DNA from: Mixta hanseatica
GTDB lineage: Bacteria; Pseudomonadota; Gammaproteobacteria; Enterobacterales; Enterobacteriaceae
Direction: 5' to 3'
Length of the DNA: 64,000 nt
Assembly (NCBI RefSeq): GCF_023517775.1
Contig: NZ_CP082904.1
Coordinates: 3,162,001 to 3,226,000, forward strand
Shown: in pieces, positions 2,033 through 18,249 of the stretch
How the letters are laid out: each line of letters opens with the position of its first letter
Numbering within the stretch: the first letter of the stretch is position 1
Translations under genes and position numbers: made by a program
The notes under the pieces: generated by a model
The model's database searches: none
What the model was told of the DNA's origin: nothing
What the model saw: the letters and a program-made list of their open reading frames with translations, nothing else

Positions 2033-2124
2033 CCAGCTTTTTTTCAGAAAATGTCTTGATCATCCCCGACAGCCATGTAGTATCGACTAATTAACTCGCT
2101 GATTTATTATTTGATCCCTATCAC

Positions 2125-3489
2125 ATGTCGCTACCTCCTTCCGCCAATATTTTTACCGTTAGCCGTCTTAACACCACGGTGCGTCAGCTGCTGGAAGGCG
2201 AAATGGGACATATCTGGCTCAGCGCTGAAATCTCCAACTTTACCCAGCCCGCTTCCGGCCACTGGTACTTTACGCTTAAAGACGATACCGCCCAGGTGCG
2301 CAGCGCGATGTTTCGCAACAGCAACCGCCGCGTGACCTTTCGTCCACAGCATGGCCAGCAGGTGCTGGTGCGCGCTACGGTCACGCTTTATGAGCCGCGC
2401 GGCGACTATCAGCTGATCGTGGAGAGCATGCATCCAGCCGGCGAAGGATTGCTGCAACAGCAGTTTGAACAGCTGAAGCAGCGGCTGGCGGCGGAAGGCC
2501 TGTTTGAGCAGCAGCATAAACAGCCGCTACCCGATCCGGCGCGCCAGGTCGGCGTGATCACCTCCGCTACCGGCGCGGCGCTGCATGACGTGCTGCGCGT
2601 GCTGCATCGTCGCGATCCTTCCCTGCCGGTGATCATCTATCCCACGGTGGTACAGGGCAATGACGCACCCGCCGCGATTGTCCGCGCCATCGAACTGGCT
2701 AACCAGCGCAATGAGTGTGACGTGCTGATCGTAGGGCGCGGTGGTGGCTCGCTGGAAGATTTATGGTGTTTCAATGATGAACGCGTGGCGCGGGCTATTT
2801 TTGCCAGCCGTATTCCGATTGTCAGCGCCGTCGGCCATGAAACCGACGTGACGATTGCCGATTTCGTCGCCGATCTGCGCGCCCCGACGCCTTCGGCGGC
2901 GGCGGAAATGGTCAGCCGTAACCAGGTGGAACTGCTGCGTCAGCTGCAGTCACAGCAGTCGCGGCTGGAAATGGCGATGGATTATTATCTGGCTCAGCAA
3001 CAGCGTAGCTTTACCCGTCTGCAGCATCGTTTGCAGCAGCAGCATCCGCAGCTGCGACTGGCACGTCAGCAGACCACCCTGTTCCGCCTGCAGCGTCGGC
3101 TGGATGAGGCGATGCAACTACAGCTGCGTGACGCTACGCGTCGGCAGGATCGTCTGGCGCAGCGCCTGACGGTCCAGCAGCCGCAGCGCAATATCAACCG
3201 GGCGCAGCAGCAGCTTCAGCAGTGGCATTATCGCCTGGCGCAGGCGATGCAGCAGCGGCTGAGCGAAGAGAAGCAGCGCTTTAGCGTGTTGGCGGCGCAT
3301 CTGGACGGCGTCAGTCCGCTGGCGACGCTGGCGCGCGGCTTTAGCGTGACGCAAACGCCTGCCGGTGAAGTGCTGAAAGAGACGCATCAGGTGCAGCCCG
3401 GCGAGACATTACAAACTCGCCTGCAGGACGGCTGGATAGAGAGCGAAGTGAAAGCGATCGTGCCATTTACTGGCGTGGTGGTGAAATAA
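2125..3489 (+). CDS. xseA: Exodeoxyribonuclease VII large subunit, altered C-terminus
   Basis: XseA is the catalytic subunit of exonuclease VII, which degrades single-stranded DNA from both ends with the small subunit XseB. The 454 residues show the N-terminal OB-fold ([17 protein letters not shown] to about residue 100), the nuclease core with [15 protein letters not shown] near residue 210 and [25 protein letters not shown], then a long Gln/Arg-rich coiled coil. The last seven residues (FTGVVVK) follow a 19-bp sequence repeated 3,065 bp downstream, where the reading frame continues into a Lys/Arg-rich tail like that of other XseA proteins. The native end was therefore displaced by an insertion; the nuclease core is unaffected. 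Confidence 0.96.
3446..3464 (+). repeat. Left 19-bp direct repeat (att-like) inside xseA
   Basis: AAGTGAAAGCGATCGTGCC is identical to positions 6511-6529. It is xseA coding sequence (codons for VKAIVP). The flanking bases differ on both sides, so the exact repeat is 19 bp. It is the left boundary of the inserted islet. Confidence 0.9.
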
Positions 3490-3520
3490 ACGAATCATAC
3501 CGCCAACGCTTTATTCAGCA

Positions 3521-3562
3521 TGGCTCATTGCTGAGATGAGCCACTGTTCCTCTCTGAACAGT
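3521..3562. terminator. Two adjacent hairpins between xseA and the phosphoesterase gene
   Basis: TGGCTCAT (3521-3528) pairs with ATGAGCCA (3536-3543), and a second stem ACTGTTC/GAACAGT spans 3543-3562. They sit in the gap between the convergent xseA and phosphoesterase genes. No clear T-run follows, so they could be weak terminators or structural ends of the inserted element. Confidence 0.4.
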
Positions 3563-3645
3563 AAATAGTGAAATAACACTATCCGTACCATTCGTCGAAG
3601 CAGCAGCGTTGACGGTATTGTTAAATGGCTATCTGACTGGCCAGA

Positions 3646-5634
3646 TCAACCAATATCATGCATTTCCCAGTGCATACCATCAGAAACATAAACCAGGCGC
3701 TGGCCTTTTCTTACCGTCGTGACGCTGTCATTGACATCAATTGTTGAACTGTAAGAAGCGTTATGTTTTATAAATATTGCTTTCCCCTTAAACTTGCCGG
3801 GAGTCGGAAAATGCATGTTAGGGGACCAGTTGCCATCCCACGTGGAAATAACAACCGAATCGGTTTGTTGCAATGCGTCAGAAAGGAGCTCGTCAGACAA
3901 GTCGATCCCGTTGACCACAGGCACTTCAAAAGACTGGGAGAAACCATCATCTATTGATTGCTCAACACAGGGCGCAGCTGAAACACGGCTCCTTGCGCTG
4001 ATATATTCCCAATAGGCATTACTGGTTTCGCCTGCTGGCAGCGGCTTATCACCTGAACTTTCGCTTTTTGCCTTAAAATAGCGCACGTTAGATATACTGT
4101 TGCCATTCAGATCGGTCAGTTCCCACTTCTGATAATTATTACCATGACTCAATGTGGATCGGGTGCCATAGGCTTCTCCGCCAGCGTTAGCATCCAGTAA
4201 ACGATGAGTAGCACGGTTCCGTAGTTGAATAAGACCACCATCATCATATTTTAATATTTCCCATTGCTGATAAGGCCCAGCGTTCCACCATTTAGTATAA
4301 ATTTCGCCATCGCCGTCTCCATCCAGTATTCTTTTATCTTTATTGTGAATTACCCTGTAAAAATCCTGTCCATAGGCATTTGTTGATAAATGTTCTATTC
4401 TCCAACGCATATATGGATTATTGGTTTGTGATTTGTTGGTATATACCTCACCATTAGCATTGCTATCAAGCGCTCTTGATGTTTGATACTGTTTTAAAAT
4501 AAAAACTTCCCGATCGCTTTGGATCAGTTTGCTTTTTACAATATCACCAGGCTGGACATTATCGCCTGGCTTAAGGCAAGCAGGAGGCGCTTTTGGCATA
4601 TTAACAGGATCGTGATTTTCTACCAGTTTCACCTTATGATTTTTTACCTGATAGCTTTGAACCTGGAAACTATCCCATTTTACGTTCAGGATATCAAAAT
4701 ATCCTGAATAGAGCGCTCCGGTAGTATATATCGGAACCTCACCAAACACCTCTTTATAATACTCTTTTTGGGGTTCATGAGTATGCCCAACAAAAACCGC
4801 AGAAATCTTATACTCTTCGAGCATAGCTTTTAGCGCAGCTTTCTGCCATGCCGTTGCCTCTTTAACATATTCAAGGCCATGGAAATTAAGGAAAATATTC
4901 CTGACTCCACGTTTTCTGGCCAGAGCCAGGTCATGTCTTAACCATGCAAGCGAGTCGTTAATGGTATAGGCGTAACCAAAATGTTGAATGTAATCTGTAT
5001 GGGTTGGTGCCAGCTGAAGTTGCACAAAATGACTGGTGCCACTTGCAGGTGAGAAATCATCCCAAGAGTATGAAAAGCTAGCCATACTCTTATTTGAATT
5101 TCTCTTGGCATAGTCCATATCAAAATTTTTCAGTCTGGAGCTATATTTAGCGGTAAGATCTTCCAGATGCTGCAACATATAAAAGGCGCAGGCATTAGTG
5201 GAGAAATCCAATTTTCCCGGCCGGGTACAGTCAAGAACGTTATTCTCATAATCATGGTTGCCATAGCCGAGATATAGCGGAAGTTTCAATACATCGCCAT
5301 AAGCCTCGTAGTACGACTTAAGCTGCGCATCTCTGCCAAATTCAGTAATATCGCCATTGATAATGCCAAACCGGAGTTTTAATTCATCTACCTTAGAATT
5401 TATCCCTCTGGCTACCGCCTGATTAAATCCGACCCATTTCCCTGAACTGGCTCCATCGTTAGGATCGGGATATCCACTTCCTTGCCCTAATCGCCACGCC
5501 TGCGGGCCGGCCATAATTAAATATTTAGTCCCCAAATCTGATGCAGTAAATTCGCTGGCGAAGCTATTGCATGCGCTCCCAGAGAGCAATAATAAGACCA
5601 ACAGCTGCTTTCTTCTCTGTTTCTTCTCTTTCAT
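3646..5634 (-). CDS. Secreted calcineurin-like phosphoesterase with ricin-type beta-trefoil
   Basis: The chosen ATG (5632-5634) has the Shine-Dalgarno sequence AAAGGA and begins a signal peptide (MKEKKQRRKQLLVLLLLSG..., likely cut after NSFA); an in-frame ATG 17 codons upstream lacks these. The 662-residue product has a metallophosphoesterase domain (about 37-335) with GDITE near 94, GNHD near 125, NFHG near 252 and GHTHEP near 283. Motif I, where related proteins have Asp (DPQxW), reads GPQAW. Next comes a beta-trefoil (about 373-508) with three QxW-like repeats (MRW, QQW, QKW), a short region ending YWEYIS resembling carbohydrate-binding modules, and a beta-rich C-terminal domain. Exported, glycan-targeted hydrolase is an inference; the substrate is unknown. 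It is the sole cargo of an AT-rich islet. Confidence 0.8.
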   Translation of the reverse strand: MKEKKQRRKQLLVLLLLSGSACNSFASEFTASDLGTKYLIMAGPQAWRLGQGSGYPDPNDGASSGKWVGFNQAVARGINSKVDELKLRFGIINGDITEFGRDAQLKSYYEAYGDVLKLPLYLGYGNHDYENNVLDCTRPGKLDFSTNACAFYMLQHLEDLTAKYSSRLKNFDMDYAKRNSNKSMASFSYSWDDFSPASGTSHFVQLQLAPTHTDYIQHFGYAYTINDSLAWLRHDLALARKRGVRNIFLNFHGLEYVKEATAWQKAALKAMLEEYKISAVFVGHTHEPQKEYYKEVFGEVPIYTTGALYSGYFDILNVKWDSFQVQSYQVKNHKVKLVENHDPVNMPKAPPACLKPGDNVQPGDIVKSKLIQSDREVFILKQYQTSRALDSNANGEVYTNKSQTNNPYMRWRIEHLSTNAYGQDFYRVIHNKDKRILDGDGDGEIYTKWWNAGPYQQWEILKYDDGGLIQLRNRATHRLLDANAGGEAYGTRSTLSHGNNYQKWELTDLNGNSISNVRYFKAKSESSGDKPLPAGETSNAYWEYISARSRVSAAPCVEQSIDDGFSQSFEVPVVNGIDLSDELLSDALQQTDSVVISTWDGNWSPNMHFPTPGKFKGKAIFIKHNASYSSTIDVNDSVTTVRKGQRLVYVSDGMHWEMHDIG

Positions 5635-6510
5635 ATATAGTCCTTTATCTGTCATTATCCTGATACTTTTATCTACGCTTTTCACGGATCACGGAGCATT
5701 CCGGTTAATGCGCTTTATGGCCGCCTGAAGTCTTATCACAACCCGACGTCTGGCTTGTTGTCTTCGGCGTCATCACCTGACTACAGGTAAACGGCACCGT
5801 ACAGTTACACTAACAAGTAATGAGGATTAACTACAAAACCAAGTCTCTTAAATAAGAAATTAATTTTTACCAACCTATCCATCCAAGGCATTTTTTAGAT
5901 ATCAATTACATATGTTTTAAGTAATGCTTTTAGAAAAGTGCTTGCAGTCATAGCGGCGGGGTTTTATCTGCGCCTGTAAGATTTCGCGACCCGCTGAGTC
6001 CTGCCAGGCAAGTCGTTGCTTATAATCTAAAAAAGGTTTATGGCGGTAACGATGTCAAACACTAACAAACATAACCATTAAACGGATCGTCAAACAGCAG
6101 CATTGCAGCATATATCTGGCGTAATGGGCTTAAGGAAGTTATAAAGCATTCAGTAAACCGAATAGAGAAAGTTGCAGGGATAAAATTAAAACAATAATGA
6201 ATACTTAAATTATGTAGTTTCAGGCCTGGCGTTATTGAAACTCCAGCCATATTTGGCAACTTAATTTCTCTGTTGGTTTTGTTGCAGTGTAATCCAGGGG
6301 TATCCCCTATTTTTCGCCATCAGGCGCACTTAATATTTATCCATTATCAGGTTGTTTTACAATGCAACAATTCATGTCAATAACCGCCAGGTAAAGGGCA
6401 GTATTTCATGTATTTATTCGATGGGGGCGCTGGAAGAAAGTTAGCCCTAACTAAAACAGATTATCGCTATATATCGCCAGGGTTTTGCTTTAAGCAGAGT
6501 GGGAAAAATA
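5635..6510. other. AT-rich non-coding right part of the xseA islet
   Basis: About 880 bases upstream of the phosphoesterase gene hold no credible gene. The longest open frame (6062-6259, minus, 65 codons) has no good ribosome-binding site and no recognisable features. The base composition is much more AT-rich than neighbouring core genes. A small inverted repeat AGTTAG-CC-CTAACT lies at 6439-6452. The segment presumably carries the phosphoesterase promoter and the right end of the element. Confidence 0.5.
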
Positions 6511-6529
6511 AAGTGAAAGCGATCGTGCC
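6511..6529 (+). repeat. Right 19-bp direct repeat (att-like)
   Basis: Exact copy of 3446-3464, lying at the junction between the AT-rich islet and the displaced xseA 3' end. Together the two copies look like attL/attR of an integration event. Confidence 0.9.
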
Positions 6530-6566
6530 GCTGAAAAAGCCGCGCAGAAAACGCGCGGCCGACTAG
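6513..6566 (+). pseudogene. Displaced 3' end of xseA
   Basis: In the xseA frame these 18 codons read VKAIVPLKKPRRKRAAD followed by TAG. The Lys/Arg-rich end resembles the native C-terminus of enterobacterial XseA (the E. coli tail is similarly basic). Joined to codon 441 of the upstream gene it would give a 458-residue XseA, close to the 456 of E. coli. It has no start of its own. Confidence 0.85.
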
Positions 6567-6570
6567 TTAG

Positions 6571-8931
6571 CTACAGACGATACGCCATGCCCTGCGCGCC
6601 GTTAACCCACAGCTCGCGCTGCTCGCCGGGCGGCAGCGTAAACTGCAAACGCCGCCAGGCGGGCTGATAGCGCCCTTCCCGCGCCACGTTAAGCTCAATG
6701 CGCGTCGCGCTACAGCTCATGCGCCAGCGCAGCCAGAGGGCATCGCCTGTGCGCCAGCCGTGGCTTTCGCCGTCATCCTCAAAAATCATCCCCTCGCTCT
6801 GCCCTTCCGCCAGCGGGAACAGCCGTAGCTCACGCTGGTCGTCCGCTGCGGCATCCACATGCGCCATGCGCTGCGACAGCGGCAGCCCAGCCCCGGCACG
6901 CACCAGCAGCGGCAGCCGCTCCAGCGGCGCATCCAGCGAGATCCACTGCCCGCCGCCGTACCACTGACCGCTCCAGAAGCAATACCAGCCCGTGCCGTTA
7001 TCCGGCAGCCAAAGCGCGCGCTGACGCTGGCCCGGCTCTACCACGCTGGCCACCAGCAGATCGCGTCCGATAAGGAAATCATCCGTTTCCTGCCAGGTTT
7101 GTGCGTCATGTTCATGATCGAGGAAGGTGGGCCGCAGCATCGGCTCATCGCAGGCGCTGGCCTGCCACAACAGGGTATAAAAATAAGGCAGCAGACGATA
7201 GCGCAGCCGGATCGCTTCACGCACTATCGCCGTCACGCCGGGGTACATCCAGGGTTCATTCACCGTGCCATCATCGTTCCACGAGTGGATGGTAAAGCGC
7301 GGATGCATTACGCCGTTCTGCACCCAGCGAACAAACAGCTCCGCATCCGGCCTGTCGCCGGAGAAGCCGCCGACATCATGCCCGACGTTATACAATCCGG
7401 AAAGGCTCATCCCCAACCCCATGCGGATGTTGTAGCGCAACGTTTGCCAGCTGGTACGGTTGTCGCCGCTCCAGGTCTGCACATAGCGCTGCATACCGGC
7501 GCAGCCGGAACGTGAAATCAGGTAAGGCCGCCGCTGCGGGGCGAAACGCTGCTGCGCCTCCAGCGAGGCGCGCATCATCAGCAGCGGCATCACCGGGCGA
7601 ATATGCTTAATCGCCACCGGACGGCCAAAGCCGTGACAGCGCGCCTCGCCGTCCCAGATTTCATATTCGTTGTTGTCGTTCCAGGTGGCGTCGATGCCCA
7701 TTTCCAGCAGTTGATCGGAGACGCCCTGCTGCCACCAGCGGATCGCCGCCGGGTTGGTAAAATCGAGATGGGACCCTTCGTCATCCCAAAAACAGGAGCG
7801 TTCCGGCGCATCGCTTTCTGAATCACGGATAAACAGCCCCTGCTGCGCCACCTCTGCGTAGCGCGGATGGTCCTGCAGCAGACAGGGTTTGATATTGGCC
7901 GCCAGACGCAGCCCGGCATCATGAAAGGCCTGACTGAGCGCCCGCGGCTGCGGCACTTTTTCATGGTTCCAGTTAAACACGTAACGCTTGTTGCCGATGG
8001 AGGTGTAGCCGGATGAGAGCTGAAAAGAGTCGCAGGGAATCGCATGCTGATGGCAGAGCTGAATAAACTGCTGTAGCTGCTGCTGCGCATCAGGCGCATC
8101 GGTATAATGCATCGTCGAGCCGCTGTAGCCGAGGCTCCATTTCGGGCCGAAACAGGTTCTACCGGTGAGCCGCACAAAAGCTTTGGTTACATCCAGTACC
8201 TGGGGGCCAAAAAACAGGTAATAGTCGAGATCGCCCGCCTCCGCCTGATAGCGCCGGTAGGGCTGATGATAGTTATCCAGCTCATTGCCGAGGTCCAGCC
8301 AGCAGCTGCTGAGGTTATCGTAAAACAGGCCGAAACTGACCTGCCCATGACGGGTAATGGTAAAAGGGATATGTTTATAGAGCGGATCGGTGCTGGCGGC
8401 GTTATAACCCATCGCGTCAAGGTTGCGCATCTCGAAACGCCGGCCGCTACGTTCAAGATCGCCCGATTTTTCTCCCAGCCCGTAGTAGCGATCGTCGGCG
8501 AAACGTCGCTGATAGTGCGCCACGCCATCGCCGTGCATATTTAACAGATAGGCGCTGGTGCGGCGATCTTCGGTCAACAATCGCCACTGATGGTCGTTAT
8601 CAAGATATTCCCACTGCAGCCAGAGCGGCTGATGCACCGTTACGCGCAGGGTCTGACTGCTGATCACCAGACGATCGTCATGCTTTTGCAAATGATAGCC
8701 CGGCAGGCTGAAGCCCTGTACGCTCAGGCGATCGCGCCCTTCCCAGGGCACATCCTCTTCTGGCGCGATGCTCCAGGTGCGATCCAGCGCCAGCTCACCA
8801 TGGCGTTTGATAAGGACGCGAAACAGCGACGGTTCCAGTACATAGAGAACAAACAGATGCCGCCCATCCACCTGCAATTCGATCCTGTCGGCGTACTCTC
8901 CCACCAGCGTCCAGTTTTTTAGCGTTTTCAT
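6571..8931 (-). CDS. Glycoside hydrolase family 31 alpha-glucosidase-type enzyme
   Basis: A 786-residue GH31 enzyme. The catalytic nucleophile lies in WNDNNE (Asp near residue 419) and the general acid/base in WSGDNRTSW (Asp near 490), in the order expected for this family: N-terminal beta-sandwich, (beta/alpha)8 barrel, C-terminal beta domains. No signal peptide is seen, so it is probably cytoplasmic and acts on an imported alpha-linked glycoside. The ATG at 8929-8931 is preferred over the GTG two codons upstream because GGAG is correctly spaced from it. It lies just downstream of the MFS transporter gene, forming a two-gene operon. The exact substrate (alpha-glucoside, alpha-xyloside or sulfoquinovoside) cannot be told. 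Confidence 0.9.
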   Translation of the reverse strand: MKTLKNWTLVGEYADRIELQVDGRHLFVLYVLEPSLFRVLIKRHGELALDRTWSIAPEEDVPWEGRDRLSVQGFSLPGYHLQKHDDRLVISSQTLRVTVHQPLWLQWEYLDNDHQWRLLTEDRRTSAYLLNMHGDGVAHYQRRFADDRYYGLGEKSGDLERSGRRFEMRNLDAMGYNAASTDPLYKHIPFTITRHGQVSFGLFYDNLSSCWLDLGNELDNYHQPYRRYQAEAGDLDYYLFFGPQVLDVTKAFVRLTGRTCFGPKWSLGYSGSTMHYTDAPDAQQQLQQFIQLCHQHAIPCDSFQLSSGYTSIGNKRYVFNWNHEKVPQPRALSQAFHDAGLRLAANIKPCLLQDHPRYAEVAQQGLFIRDSESDAPERSCFWDDEGSHLDFTNPAAIRWWQQGVSDQLLEMGIDATWNDNNEYEIWDGEARCHGFGRPVAIKHIRPVMPLLMMRASLEAQQRFAPQRRPYLISRSGCAGMQRYVQTWSGDNRTSWQTLRYNIRMGLGMSLSGLYNVGHDVGGFSGDRPDAELFVRWVQNGVMHPRFTIHSWNDDGTVNEPWMYPGVTAIVREAIRLRYRLLPYFYTLLWQASACDEPMLRPTFLDHEHDAQTWQETDDFLIGRDLLVASVVEPGQRQRALWLPDNGTGWYCFWSGQWYGGGQWISLDAPLERLPLLVRAGAGLPLSQRMAHVDAAADDQRELRLFPLAEGQSEGMIFEDDGESHGWRTGDALWLRWRMSCSATRIELNVAREGRYQPAWRRLQFTLPPGEQRELWVNGAQGMAYRL

Positions 8932-8945
8932 ATCCACTCCAGCAT

Positions 8946-10244
8946 TTAACGTTTTTTAGCGCCGCGCTCGGCTAACAGGGCGATCAGAAACAGCGCGCCG
9001 ATCAGGTCGAAAAATCCCATCGCCACAAACAACGGGCCGAAGCCGACGGTATCGGAAACGGCGCCGATCAGCAGGGAAAAGAGGAAGCTGGCGATCCAGG
9101 CGCAGGAGCCACGCATACCGTTGACCGTCGCCATCTGATTTTTATCGAACGATTCCACCACCAGCGCACTGAGCATGCAGGAGATCACCTGATGGCCGAA
9201 GCCGCCGACGGAGATCAACGCGATCGCCAGAAAAGGATCTTTAGTTACGGCAACCAGCGTCAACGAGAGCATCATAAAAGCGCCGGTGACGGAGCTGGCA
9301 ATCACTGAATTAATACGCCGGAAGCCGAACCATTTGCGATAAAGATGGGTAAGGTAGCCGCTGGCGACGCTGCCGATATCCGCCGCTAAAAAAGGCAGCC
9401 AGGCAAACAGCGCAATCTGTTTCAGATCCATGCCGCGTTCGCTGGCGAGATAGAGCGGTACCCAAAAGCTGAAGACCGCCCACGCCGGCTCGGCAAGAAA
9501 GGCCGGTATGGCGATACCGTAAAACTTTTTGTCACGGCAGAGCCGTCCCAGCGAGGTGAAAAACGGCAGTTTCGGCAGGTCCGGTTCCTTATCTTCACGA
9601 ATAAGATCCAGTTCCTGCTGGCTCAGATTAGGGTGCTGCTGCGGCGCATGGTAGAAGCGCCACCACAGCACCACCCAGGCTAAGCCCAGCGCGCCGGAAA
9701 AGAGAAAAGCGCCCTGCCAGCCCAGCGTCAGATGGGTAACGACGATAATCGGCGGGGCCAGCATCGCGCCGACAGAAAAGCCAACGCCAGCCCAACCGGC
9801 GGCGACGGGACGCTCTTTCTTCGGAAACCAGTCGGCGATAGCGCGGGCGTTAGCCGGCGTGGCAGCTGCTTCGGCGCCGCCCATAAAAAAGCGCAGCAGC
9901 GCCAGCTGCACCCAGCTTCCCGCTCCAGCGTGCAACATACAAACCAATGCCCAGATAATGGCGCAGATCATAAAGCCGGTTTTCAGGCCAATCACATCGA
10001 TCAGCCAGCCGCAAAGCGGCTGAAACAGGGTATAGGCGAGCTGAAACGCCGCGACGACCCACGAGTACTGTTCGGTGGTCATATTCAGGCTGACTTTCAG
10101 CTCAGGGGCCAGAATCCCCAGCGAATTGCGGGTGATATAGTTAATGGTGATGCCCAGCAGGAAGAGCGCCAGCATCCACCAGCGTAGCGATTTAAACTTA
10201 CGAGCGGAACGGGTTGCGACGGCCTGTTCGGTTTCAATACTCAT
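8946..10244 (-). CDS. MFS transporter, anion:cation symporter type
   Basis: A 432-residue membrane protein with about 12 hydrophobic segments of the major facilitator superfamily. The N-terminal GITINYITRNSLGILAPEL and the GGAEAAATPANARAIADWFPKKERPVAAGWAGVGFSVG segment are typical of the ACS subfamily (hexuronate/ExuT-like). The ATG at 10242-10244 has GGAG seven bases upstream. It precedes the GH31 gene by 14 bases, so it most likely imports that enzyme's glycoside. The divergent LacI-type gene is the likely local repressor. Confidence 0.88.
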   Translation of the reverse strand: MSIETEQAVATRSARKFKSLRWWMLALFLLGITINYITRNSLGILAPELKVSLNMTTEQYSWVVAAFQLAYTLFQPLCGWLIDVIGLKTGFMICAIIWALVCMLHAGAGSWVQLALLRFFMGGAEAAATPANARAIADWFPKKERPVAAGWAGVGFSVGAMLAPPIIVVTHLTLGWQGAFLFSGALGLAWVVLWWRFYHAPQQHPNLSQQELDLIREDKEPDLPKLPFFTSLGRLCRDKKFYGIAIPAFLAEPAWAVFSFWVPLYLASERGMDLKQIALFAWLPFLAADIGSVASGYLTHLYRKWFGFRRINSVIASSVTGAFMMLSLTLVAVTKDPFLAIALISVGGFGHQVISCMLSALVVESFDKNQMATVNGMRGSCAWIASFLFSLLIGAVSDTVGFGPLFVAMGFFDLIGALFLIALLAERGAKKR

Positions 10245-16012: not shown

Positions 16013-16234
16013 TTACTGCTTTACCGGAACAAACTCGACCCGCATTTTCGAAATTAGTCCATGCCCGTGCGGGCAGAAATAGTCGGTCGCCCCACAGGCT
16101 TTTAACACCTGTAATGGCTGATGGCACTCGGGACATTGCGGCTGACGTGCATAATGCGCATCACATTGCTGACAGGAAAAATCATGGTCGGTTAACGTTA
16201 GCGGTGACTTACATCTCTCACAAAGCTGGCTCAT
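16013..16234 (-). CDS. yfgJ: Zinc-ribbon protein YfgJ
   Basis: A 73-residue protein with four pairs of Cys or Cys/His: CERC, CQQC, CPEC and a late CGATDYFCPHGH, consistent with tandem zinc ribbons. It matches the small YfgJ family, which in E. coli lies between xseA and der. Its function is not established. Here it is separated from xseA by more than 12 kb of accessory genes, but still precedes der on the same strand. Confidence 0.85.
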   Translation of the reverse strand: MSQLCERCKSPLTLTDHDFSCQQCDAHYARQPQCPECHQPLQVLKACGATDYFCPHGHGLISKMRVEFVPVKQ

Positions 16235-16534
16235 AACTACACCTTATTAATAAATATAAGCTAAGCATCATATTGTTGTGGCCGCGCGCAAGGCGGCACA
16301 ACCCTGACGCTATCATAATCTTTTTTATTTTTCCCTGCATAACGCGGTTGCCTGCTGCATAAACTCTTTTTATATCAACCTGTAATGTTTGATGTCTGCC
16401 AGACTGAATTATATTCACTGATTTATTGCTAAAACAGTTATAGAAAAACAGCAGCGGAAATTAGTTAATTAATACGGTATCTGACGATACCAAAGCAAAA
16501 GCTTAATTAATTATTTTATTAAAGGATCAATCAA
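16235..16534. promoter_or_regulatory. AT-rich control region of the small-peptide gene
   Basis: The last 80 bases before the small-peptide gene are strongly AT-rich. They hold a 16-bp inverted repeat GGTATC-TGAC-GATACC (16476-16491), flanked by two TTAATTAA palindromes (16465-16472 and 16503-16510). This could be an operator embedded in the promoter. The rest of the spacer shows the yfgJ upstream region and no further gene. Confidence 0.45.
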
Positions 16535-16717
16535 ATGAAATACTTAAACCGCGAACAAATAAAACAGATCTCAGGTGCTGGGCAGGCTGATGGATATTGG
16601 GAAAACGATAACTGGAACGATAATGAGCATAGCGACTGGGCTAATAAGTGGCATGAAGCAGGACGCGATGCCTGGAATAAAAGAGGTAACAGAGATTATC
16701 CGTGGCGCAGGTCGTAA
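16535..16717 (+). CDS. Small Trp-rich peptide with microcin-like leader
   Basis: A 60-residue open frame with a good ribosome-binding site (AAAGGATC eight or so bases before ATG). The N-terminus MKYLNREQIKQISGAG resembles the double-glycine-type leaders of class II microcins and related bacteriocins (hydrophobic spacing, then SGAG in place of GG). The predicted core of about 43 residues has six Trp, many Asn/Asp in its first half and Arg/Lys in its second. No peptidase-exporter, modification or immunity gene is next to it, so export would rely on genes elsewhere. It is not a family I can name; a non-bacteriocin secreted peptide is possible. Confidence 0.6.
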   Translation: MKYLNREQIKQISGAGQADGYWENDNWNDNEHSDWANKWHEAGRDAWNKRGNRDYPWRRS

Positions 16718-16727
16718 ACCATAACAA

Positions 16728-16749
16728 AGGGGCTGCATCGGCAGCCCCT
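16728..16749. terminator. Bidirectional terminator between the small-peptide gene and der
   Basis: AGGGGCTGC pairs with GCAGCCCCT around ATCG. The minus strand continues TTTGTTAT, so it ends der; the plus strand, which would end the small-peptide gene, has only a weak T-tract. Confidence 0.75.
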
Positions 16750-16755
16750 GAACAA

Positions 16756-18249
16756 TTAACGCTTATTCTTTTTCAAATGTGACAGCAGACGCTTACGCTT
16801 ACGCTGCTGATTTGGCGTCAGCAGGTTACGTTTGCCGGCGAAGGGGTTATCGCCCTCTTTAAACTGAATACGGATCGGCGTACCCATGACGTTCAACGAA
16901 CGGCGGAAATAGTTCATCAGGTAACGCTTATAAGAGTCAGGCAAATCCTTCACCTGGTTACCATGAATCACCACGATCGGCGGGTTATAACCGCCGGCGT
17001 GGGCATATTTCAGCTTAACGCGACGTCCACGCACCAGCGGCGGCTGATGATCTTCAGACGCCATATTCATAATACGCGTTAGCATAGAGGTGCCAACACG
17101 GCGCGTAGAGCAATCGTAGGCTTCAGTGATCGACTCAAACAAATTGCCAACGCCGCTGCCGTGCAGCGCAGAGATAAAGTGAACACGGGCGAAATCAATA
17201 AAGCCCAGACGGAAATCGAGCGTCTCTTTCACTTCGTCTTTCACTTCCTGCGACAGGCCATCCCACTTGTTAACCACAATCACAAGTGAGCGCCCACTAT
17301 TCAAAATAAAGCCGAGCAGCGAGAGATCCTGGTCGGAAATACCCTGTCGGGCATCAATAACCAACAGGACCACGTTCGCGTCTTCAATCGCCTGCAGCGT
17401 TTTGATCACCGAGAATTTTTCTACCGTATCGGTGACCTTGCCGCGCTTACGCACGCCCGCAGTATCGATCAGGATATATTCGCGGTCGTCACGCTCCATA
17501 GGAATATAGATGCTGTCACGCGTGGTTCCCGGCATGTCATACACCACCACGCGATCTTCGCCAAGGATGCGGTTAGTAAGTGTTGACTTACCTACGTTAG
17601 GACGTCCTACAATCGCAATCTTGATCGGCAGGCCCGTAGGGTCGAACTCTTCTTCCTCTTCTGCGTCTGCATCTTCACCGCTCTCTTTGGCTGCTAACTC
17701 TGCCCAGTAGGCCTCGTTCTCTTCCTCTTCGGTCAGCGGCTCCGCCGGTGCGATCTGGTCCATCCACGGCAGCAGCGCCGTTTCCAGCAGAGAAGTCACG
17801 CCACGTCCGTGCGATGCGGCGATAGAGTGGATCTCGCCGAGGCCCAGCGCATAAAAGTCGACGACGGCGCTGTCGGCATCCAGACCATCCGTTTTATTGG
17901 CGACCAGGAACGTCGCCTTTTCGCGCGAGCGCAGATGCTTGGCAATAGCCTGATCGGCTGGCATCAGGCCAGCACGGGCGTCCACCATGAACAGCACCAC
18001 GTCCGCTTCTTCAATCGCTAACAGCGACTGTTCCGCCATCCGGGTTTCCACGCCGTCTTCGGTACCGTCAATACCACCGGTATCGATGACGATGAACTCA
18101 CGTCCTTCCACCTCGGCGCGCCCGTATTTACGATCGCGCGTCAGACCGGGGAAATCTGCCACCAGCGCATCGCGGGTGCGCGTTAAACGGTTAAACAGGG
18201 TGGATTTGCCCACGTTAGGACGCCCAACCAGCGCGACCACAGGTATCAT
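16756..18249 (-). CDS. der: Ribosome-biogenesis GTPase Der
   Basis: A 497-residue protein with two tandem GTPase domains, each with a full P-loop ([14 protein letters not shown] near residue 8 and [14 protein letters not shown] near 210), G2/G3 (DTGG, DTAG) and NKxD motifs (NKTDG, NKWDG). They are joined by an acidic linker rich in Glu and followed by a KH-like domain with a basic tail. It assists late 50S subunit assembly. It lies downstream of bamB, with a terminator-like hairpin between them. Confidence 0.98.

Follow-up and report, generated by a model that had tools for sequence, protein, structure and literature searches.

In Mixta hanseatica, the gene xseA, encoding the large subunit of exodeoxyribonuclease VII, is interrupted close to its 3' end by an AT-rich islet of about 3 kb, and this islet, with the single gene that it carries (the cargo gene), is the subject of the present analysis. 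The locus lies within a stretch of 64,000 nucleotides (contig NZ_CP082904.1, positions 3,162,001 to 3,226,000 of the forward strand), which was analysed at its full length and is referred to here as the window. Reading from left to right, there is xseA with a replaced C-terminal tail, the cargo gene on the opposite strand, a non-coding stretch, the second copy of a 19-bp repeat, the displaced native end of xseA and, convergent with it, a downstream gene which we take to encode a YicI-like glycosidase. Coordinates are collected in Table 1.

The islet is framed by the direct repeat AAGTGAAAGCGATCGTGCC, whose two copies have 0 mismatches between them. Across the whole 4.44-Mb genome there are 5 other matches, all with 3 mismatches and none closer, and 100 shuffles of the window produced on average 0.03 matches when up to 3 mismatches were allowed. 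The perfect repeats reported by the first-pass annotation of this DNA are thus confirmed, as are the two gene ends that it described: after the left copy, xseA ends in the seven residues FTGVVVK and a stop, and the frame from the right copy runs on to ...VKAIVPLKKPRRKRAAD and a stop, ending in the native basic tail LKKPRRKRAAD. The length of 3,065 bp given in that annotation is right as the distance from start to start of the two copies, and not as the inserted stretch, since the DNA between the copies measures 3,046 bp. The insertion point is about 11 codons ahead of the native xseA stop, the reading frame is kept, and the insert brings its own seven-residue tail and stop, leaving the native tail 3 kb downstream of the truncated gene. 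The GC (guanine plus cytosine) fraction is 0.375-0.465 in 400-bp segments within the insert (3500-6499) and 0.545-0.675 in those within its flanks (2100-3499 and 6500-9499).

The state of the site before insertion can be read in the genus, from a sample of eight genomes assigned to Mixta by named protein hits: the window's own (G000), G203, which is Mixta theicola-like and has a cargo resembling the protein P0005 of Mixta theicola, and G198, G201, G130, G199, G202 and G200. All eight possess xseA. The last six hold an empty site, with an uninterrupted xseA and a basic end that carries LKK[TA]RKK (for example PLKKTRKKRA), and the remaining two, the window's and G203, are filled. Where the site is empty, xseA and der are 10.0-10.6 kb apart; the distance is 13.3 kb in the window and 12.9 kb in G203. 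Three of the empty genomes (G201, G130 and G199) have an xseA end to which the right flank aligns over its first 43-46 bp, the repeat among them, at 78-79% identity and with E values of 7e-5 to 3e-4. Because xseA is intact in these congeners and the right flank aligns to their xseA ends, the right copy can be identified as the native end moved out of place, and the overlap of 19 bp as a scar rather than a chance likeness. The islet is confirmed as an insertion in the 3' end of xseA.

Relatives had been proposed in the first-pass annotation as the place to look for empty sites and for other cargo between the repeats, and both were found there, the second in G203, which is filled with a related but different cargo. 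Its proposal would have failed if all relatives carried the short xseA with the same downstream segment, or if sister genes lacked the repeat and basic tail; instead, six of the eight are intact and the sister genes have basic tails, with a homologue of the repeat, the exact 19-mer being absent from the sister xseA genes.

Table 1. Features of the xseA locus in the window, with comparison loci given in their own coordinates
Feature	Position	Strand	Basis or remark
xseA, exodeoxyribonuclease VII large subunit, 454 codons, C-terminal tail replaced	2125..3489	+	PF02601, E 1.4e-115
Left 19-bp copy, candidate attL core, within xseA	3446..3464	+	repeat search
xseA end supplied by the insert, FTGVVVK and stop	3465..3489	+	near copy FAGAVKK in G203
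AT-rich inserted DNA, 3,046 bp	3465..6510	.	not in xseA of six congeners
Cargo gene, convergent with xseA	3646..5685	-	likely start ATG 5634
AT-rich stretch upstream of the cargo gene, 825 bp, non-coding	5686..6510	.	no gene or RNA family recognised
Right 19-bp copy, candidate attR core	6511..6529	+	repeat search
Displaced native xseA end, LKKPRRKRAAD and stop	6530..6566	+	compared with six empty-site tails
Predicted terminator-like hairpin and U tract, made by the displaced xseA end	6533..6560	-	-16.5 kcal/mol
Downstream gene, adjoining the xseA site in 8 of 8 genus genomes	6571..8937	-	convergent
yfgJ-like open reading frame and der, far border of the variable xseA-der interval	16028..18249	-	
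Erwinia cargo relative convergent with a core gene	L162 7836-9617		
Erwinia cargo relative convergent with a core gene	L174 5840-7624		
Erwinia cargo relative convergent with a core gene	L175 6028-7722		
Erwinia cargo relative convergent with a core gene	L177 5729-7438		
Erwinia cargo relative, further gene between cargo and eno	L176 5765-7501		
UTI89 adhesin, SinI and SinH genes, from xseA to the yfgJ-like gene	L184 9502-20910		
Ecol_448 adhesin, SinI and SinH genes, from xseA to the yfgJ-like gene	L185 10182-21594		

The cargo gene, read from its likely start, encodes 662 residues, as in P0001. Three domains exceed their Pfam cut-offs, namely Metallophos, a RicinB-type lectin (beta-trefoil) and a StcE beta-sandwich, with the PF00149 match at 36.4 bits against a curated cut-off of 21.5. 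The hydrophobic N-terminus predicts that the protein is exported, and the predicted structural model has a mean pLDDT (predicted local distance difference test) of 80, with a lectin part like actinohivin. The calcineurin-like phosphoesterase-lectins of Erwinia and Mixta that combine PF00149 with PF14200 have the same domain order; the window's protein differs from them in its extra StcE-type beta-sandwich, which is also found in P0002-P0004. In an alignment of the window's cargo with 10 of 33 relative proteins, the window alone has glycine at position 60, which belongs to the first metallophosphoesterase motif; all 10 other rows have aspartate there. This aspartate presumably serves in the metal-binding motif. 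Because of the glycine, phosphatase activity of the window's cargo is doubtful, and the enzyme may be inactive with the lectin part kept. The segment had first been described as AT-rich, with one exported-protein gene and no recombinase; the GC profile, the domain search and the PF00589 search agree, export being a prediction.

The second filled genome, G203, provides the closest comparison. It carries a related cargo, with 56% identical residues, between xseA and the same downstream gene, and the insertion point is the same in both genomes. The replacement tails FTGVVVK and FAGAVKK agree at 20 of 24 nucleotides, a likeness equalled by 0 of 3000 shuffles, and a degenerate pattern made from both tails matches 3 of 392 family genomes: the window's, G203 and G343. 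The match in G343 (L188 1501-1524, 24 nucleotides) lies in 3 kb of examined sequence that contains neither XseA nor cargo, and is probably due to chance. On its opposite strand it resembles what we take to be a conserved helicase motif. The left and right 19-bp copies of G203 differ at 8 of 19 positions (11/19 identity), against 0 of 19 in the window (Fisher p 0.003). As the repeat is perfect here and decayed in G203, even though the branch leading to G203 is the shorter (0.059 against 0.084), the comparison suggests that the window's islet is the younger.

In integration by a tyrosine recombinase into the 3' end of a gene, the gene ends are exchanged with the frame kept, a short identical core is left, and an empty site is seen in relatives. 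Site-specific integration at the xseA 3' end, by a recombinase that was lost or that acts in trans, is favoured because the geometry of the islet matches this footprint, and we give it an even chance. The islet would then be a cargo-only element at a site-specific attachment point in the xseA 3' end, and the 19 bp would be the core shared by attP and attB of a tyrosine-type recombinase. The recombinase would have been lost from the element, or would never have been on it and would have acted in trans, and filling or refilling of the site would have happened at least twice within the genus. Selection probably keeps the cargo, an exported phosphoesterase-lectin, and not mobility. The first-pass annotation had already named this footprint; the insertion in the xseA 3' end stands, and the recombinase step stays conditional, with no integrase found. 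With genomic islands and prophages that tyrosine recombinases have placed in the 3' ends of protein genes, the islet shares the place of insertion, the kept frame, the direct repeats and the empty site. It differs from integrase-borne islands in that no integrase was found, that it holds one gene, and that the native end is swapped and not restored. It works like an integrase-borne genomic island and is not counted as a member of that class, since an integrase gene was not found on the element.

Several results weigh against site-specific integration. The genome has 18 PF00589 matches, of which 0 lie in the window, and no recombinase gene or remnant was recognised in the window's islet; in that of G203, the family search covered the cargo. 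No terminal inverted repeat was found in the islet. Downstream of xseA in 80 other loci (flank mostly about 10 kb, less in some), a scan for a second copy of the xseA tail gave nothing convincing, with four isolated 18-mer matches at 2 mismatches (L046, L065, L091, L108), and 0 of the 80 had an integrase match on the xseA 3' side within the flank examined. A supposed likeness between the right inner ends of the two islets was dropped after its test showed none. Room is left for a single ancestral insertion, since G000, G203 and G198 form a trichotomy, the approximately unbiased (AU) test giving p 0.23 for G000 with G203 and p 0.44 for G000 with G198, and the displaced tails of both filled genomes have KKPR.K.AA[DE] in common, unlike the six other congeners. 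Finally, the identity between G203 and G198 is 79% in the last full segment of xseA compared, which weakens the test for an imported flank that is discussed below.

Other searches for mobile-element signs were made on the islet. The 825-bp non-coding part contains 12 stop-to-stop pieces of 28 or more residues; for the six longest of them (40 residues or more) the Pfam search gave nothing below E 0.11, and no Rfam family is found in the islet up to E 1. No repeated element was recognised in it, and copies elsewhere in the genome were not found. The islet DNA has no match at E 1e-3 among 72,556 plasmid and 50,697 phage records, and viral contigs searched with XseA and with the cargo alignment yielded no relative. 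Two short matches to the non-coding part occur in G200 (E 3e-4 and 0.006). Eight of the 80 loci (L042, L061, L073, L079, L096, L100, L115, L119) do have integrase matches, some 3.6-5.8 kb before xseA, a position occupied in E. coli by guaA; these matches lie always on the upstream side and were not counted as an xseA integrase. The queries were 18 open reading frames of the own genome, the longest over each match being chosen automatically, so that the frame may be wrong in some.

The xseA gene is a known place of insertion. According to the available part of one paper, it is a conserved site of plasticity regions in Photorhabdus and Xenorhabdus, and it flanks the CS54 island of Salmonella and a 14-kb island of CFT073; SGI1, by comparison, integrates at trmE (PMC3091717). 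CS54 is tabulated at xseA-yfgK in the portion available of a second source (PMC9861973). The statement in the first-pass annotation that no element of this type has been described in xseA was, in view of this published hotspot, too strong. A paper on an xseA deletion in Anabaena (PMC4907049), as far as its available text goes, is unrelated. In E. coli, of 5,375 matched genomes, 3,639 have one place that accounts for 80% or more of an xseA-yfgJ-der query, and among the remaining 1,736 genomes two were read (UTI89 and Ecol_448), both of which carry sinH, sinI and adhesin genes. These two islands resemble the window's in lying on the same side of xseA and in coding for exported or surface proteins on the opposite strand, with no annotated integrase in either; they are unlike it in that they follow a complete xseA with a basic end and hold adhesin, SinI and SinH genes and no phosphoesterase-lectin. 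The surface-protein genes of CS54 are, we presume, shdA and ratA. As for CS54-type islands, the window's islet lies on the 3' side of xseA, before yfgJ and der.

This hotspot sets the stage for the strongest competing explanation, an illegitimate or homology-assisted insertion, in which a related xseA end would have come in with homology on the left and microhomology on the right, the recipient tail being left behind. It would be one form of the turnover of hotspots through recombination in the core genes on their flanks (Oliveira et al. 2017, PMC5635113), and we regard it as possible, leaning towards unlikely. In its favour, the excerpt available of that paper has many hotspots without integrases that recombine at the flanking core genes, their origin being debated. 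Additionally, among the 80 loci, the 55 with der in reach have between 402 and 8,521 bp separating it from xseA, and the two E. coli islands without annotated integrase follow divergent xseA ends: those of UTI89 and Ecol_448 are 79% and 74% identical to LY180 in the final 134 and 152 bp of the alignment, and UTI89 xseA, in steps of 120 columns, is at 89-98% except for 80% once and 70% in the last. Neither genome has a duplicated xseA end. Against such an insertion, no dip in identity to the congeners peculiar to the window genome is seen beside the insert, a test of little power because none of the congeners conserves the xseA end well. The replacement tail was found on an islet-free xseA in 0 of the 80 loci and in 0 of 31 XseA tails inspected; these came from 120 XseA proteins, the other 89 of which have at least 4 basic residues there, unlike the replacement tail. 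Nor would a one-sided illegitimate junction lead one to expect that two lineages share the insertion point and have similar replacement tails. Like the hotspots of Oliveira et al., as their available text presents them, the islet occupies a variable interval between conserved genes and is free of an integrase, but it has a sharp 19-bp edge and, on a weak test, no sign of an imported flank (PMC5635113).

The likeness of the two filled sites could also stem from a single insertion, by any mechanism, into an ancestor shared by the window's species and the M. theicola-like species, followed by very fast divergence of the secreted gene and its flanks and by loss or absence in G198, which we consider unlikely. 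The same site, the similar replacement and displaced tails and the neighbouring species all fit it. However, the repeats have decayed unequally, and in the direction opposite to the branch lengths. At fourfold sites the cargo has diverged between the window and G203 by 0.597 (77/129), and the five neighbouring genes by 0.192 (guaB), 0.276 (xseA), 0.248 (downstream gene), 0.254 (transporter) and 0.368 (regulator), so that the cargo stands at 1.6 to 3.1 times its neighbours, uncorrected. Three core intergenic stretches nearby align at 77-92% between the two genomes, and the non-coding DNA of the two islets cannot be aligned, its score not exceeding the best of 100 shuffles. Only one of the two cargos has the C-terminal domain. 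In a cargo tree made from the first 575 residues of the window's cargo and 8 of the aligned proteins cut to 620, the window's cargo groups with the metagenomic P0002, of unspecified host, and not with that of G203 (support 100/100). Because the window and G203 share the replacement tail and not the interior, we infer, short of proof, that the genus has seen this site filled, or refilled, on more than one occasion.

A transposon or insertion sequence with an unusual target duplication of 19 bp would account for a direct repeat on both sides of AT-rich inserted DNA and for the empty site of relatives, but usual target duplications are shorter, Pfam searches recognised no transposase in the islet, terminal inverted repeats are lacking, and five loci of cargo relatives have no duplicated gene end, only A/T-rich 13-mers at two secA loci, which together make it very improbable.

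Since xseA is a known hotspot, the novelty is narrowed to the scar, with its replaced gene end and its displaced native end between 19-bp repeats. What is new here is this tail-swapping scar, together with a cargo family beside xseA, secA, mutT and eno. No description of the tail-duplicating geometry was found in the open-licence literature, an absence that is weak evidence. The locus adds an example from Erwiniaceae to the hotspot and bears on the origin of integrase-less hotspots, which is debated in the accessible part of Oliveira et al. (PMC5635113). Within a single genus one can see the site unoccupied, occupied with its repeat still perfect, and occupied by a different cargo with its repeat decayed, as well as what became of the displaced end. 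With these states readable side by side, site-specific integration against recombination at the flanks becomes a testable question.

The displaced xseA end may have found a further use. On the minus strand it would fold into a nine-pair stem followed by a U tract, directly behind the stop of the convergent downstream gene. The calculated hairpin energy is -16.5 kcal/mol in the window and -17.5 in G203, and the corresponding stretch in the six empty sites folds at -6.9 to -12.2 kcal/mol. Judged from this fold, the displaced end is a predicted terminator of the downstream gene, and it would illustrate a plausible route by which a gene end is reused as a terminator.

Beyond the genus, relatives that cover most of the cargo's length are few: among 392 sampled family genomes, only G228 passes E 1e-100, and 14 pass 1e-30. 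Erwinia, the genus of G228, accounts for 8 of 37 genomes at 1e-30, two of them over the phosphoesterase part only, and the genus of G146 for 0 of 61. Of the six fuller Erwinia copies, two follow secA (G228, G421), one follows mutT (G427), one follows eno (G408) and two lie between queE and eno (G419, with a further gene on the eno side, and G410), these neighbours being named from their proteins, without a family search. In G228, G421, G427 and G408 the cargo is convergent with the neighbouring core gene. The copy in G410 (L178 5956-7728) is broken by several stops. In the cargo tree the four sites need three changes, meaning that copies at the same site stay together. A broader scheme, which we hold decidedly unlikely, would have non-autonomous phosphoesterase-lectin cassettes of Erwiniaceae settling at the 3' ends of housekeeping genes (xseA, secA, mutT, eno) by means of a recombinase in trans, and at xseA supplying a new coding end while the displaced end turns into a terminator. 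Four more distant relatives of the cargo (L163, L164, L165 and L179) lie at none of these four genes, and the comparison of sites does not include them. Within Mixta, open reading frames of about 345 residues in two of the empty-site genomes (G200:C1:2822640-2822936 and G202:C67:128201-128473) share with the cargo only the StcE-type C-terminal domain.

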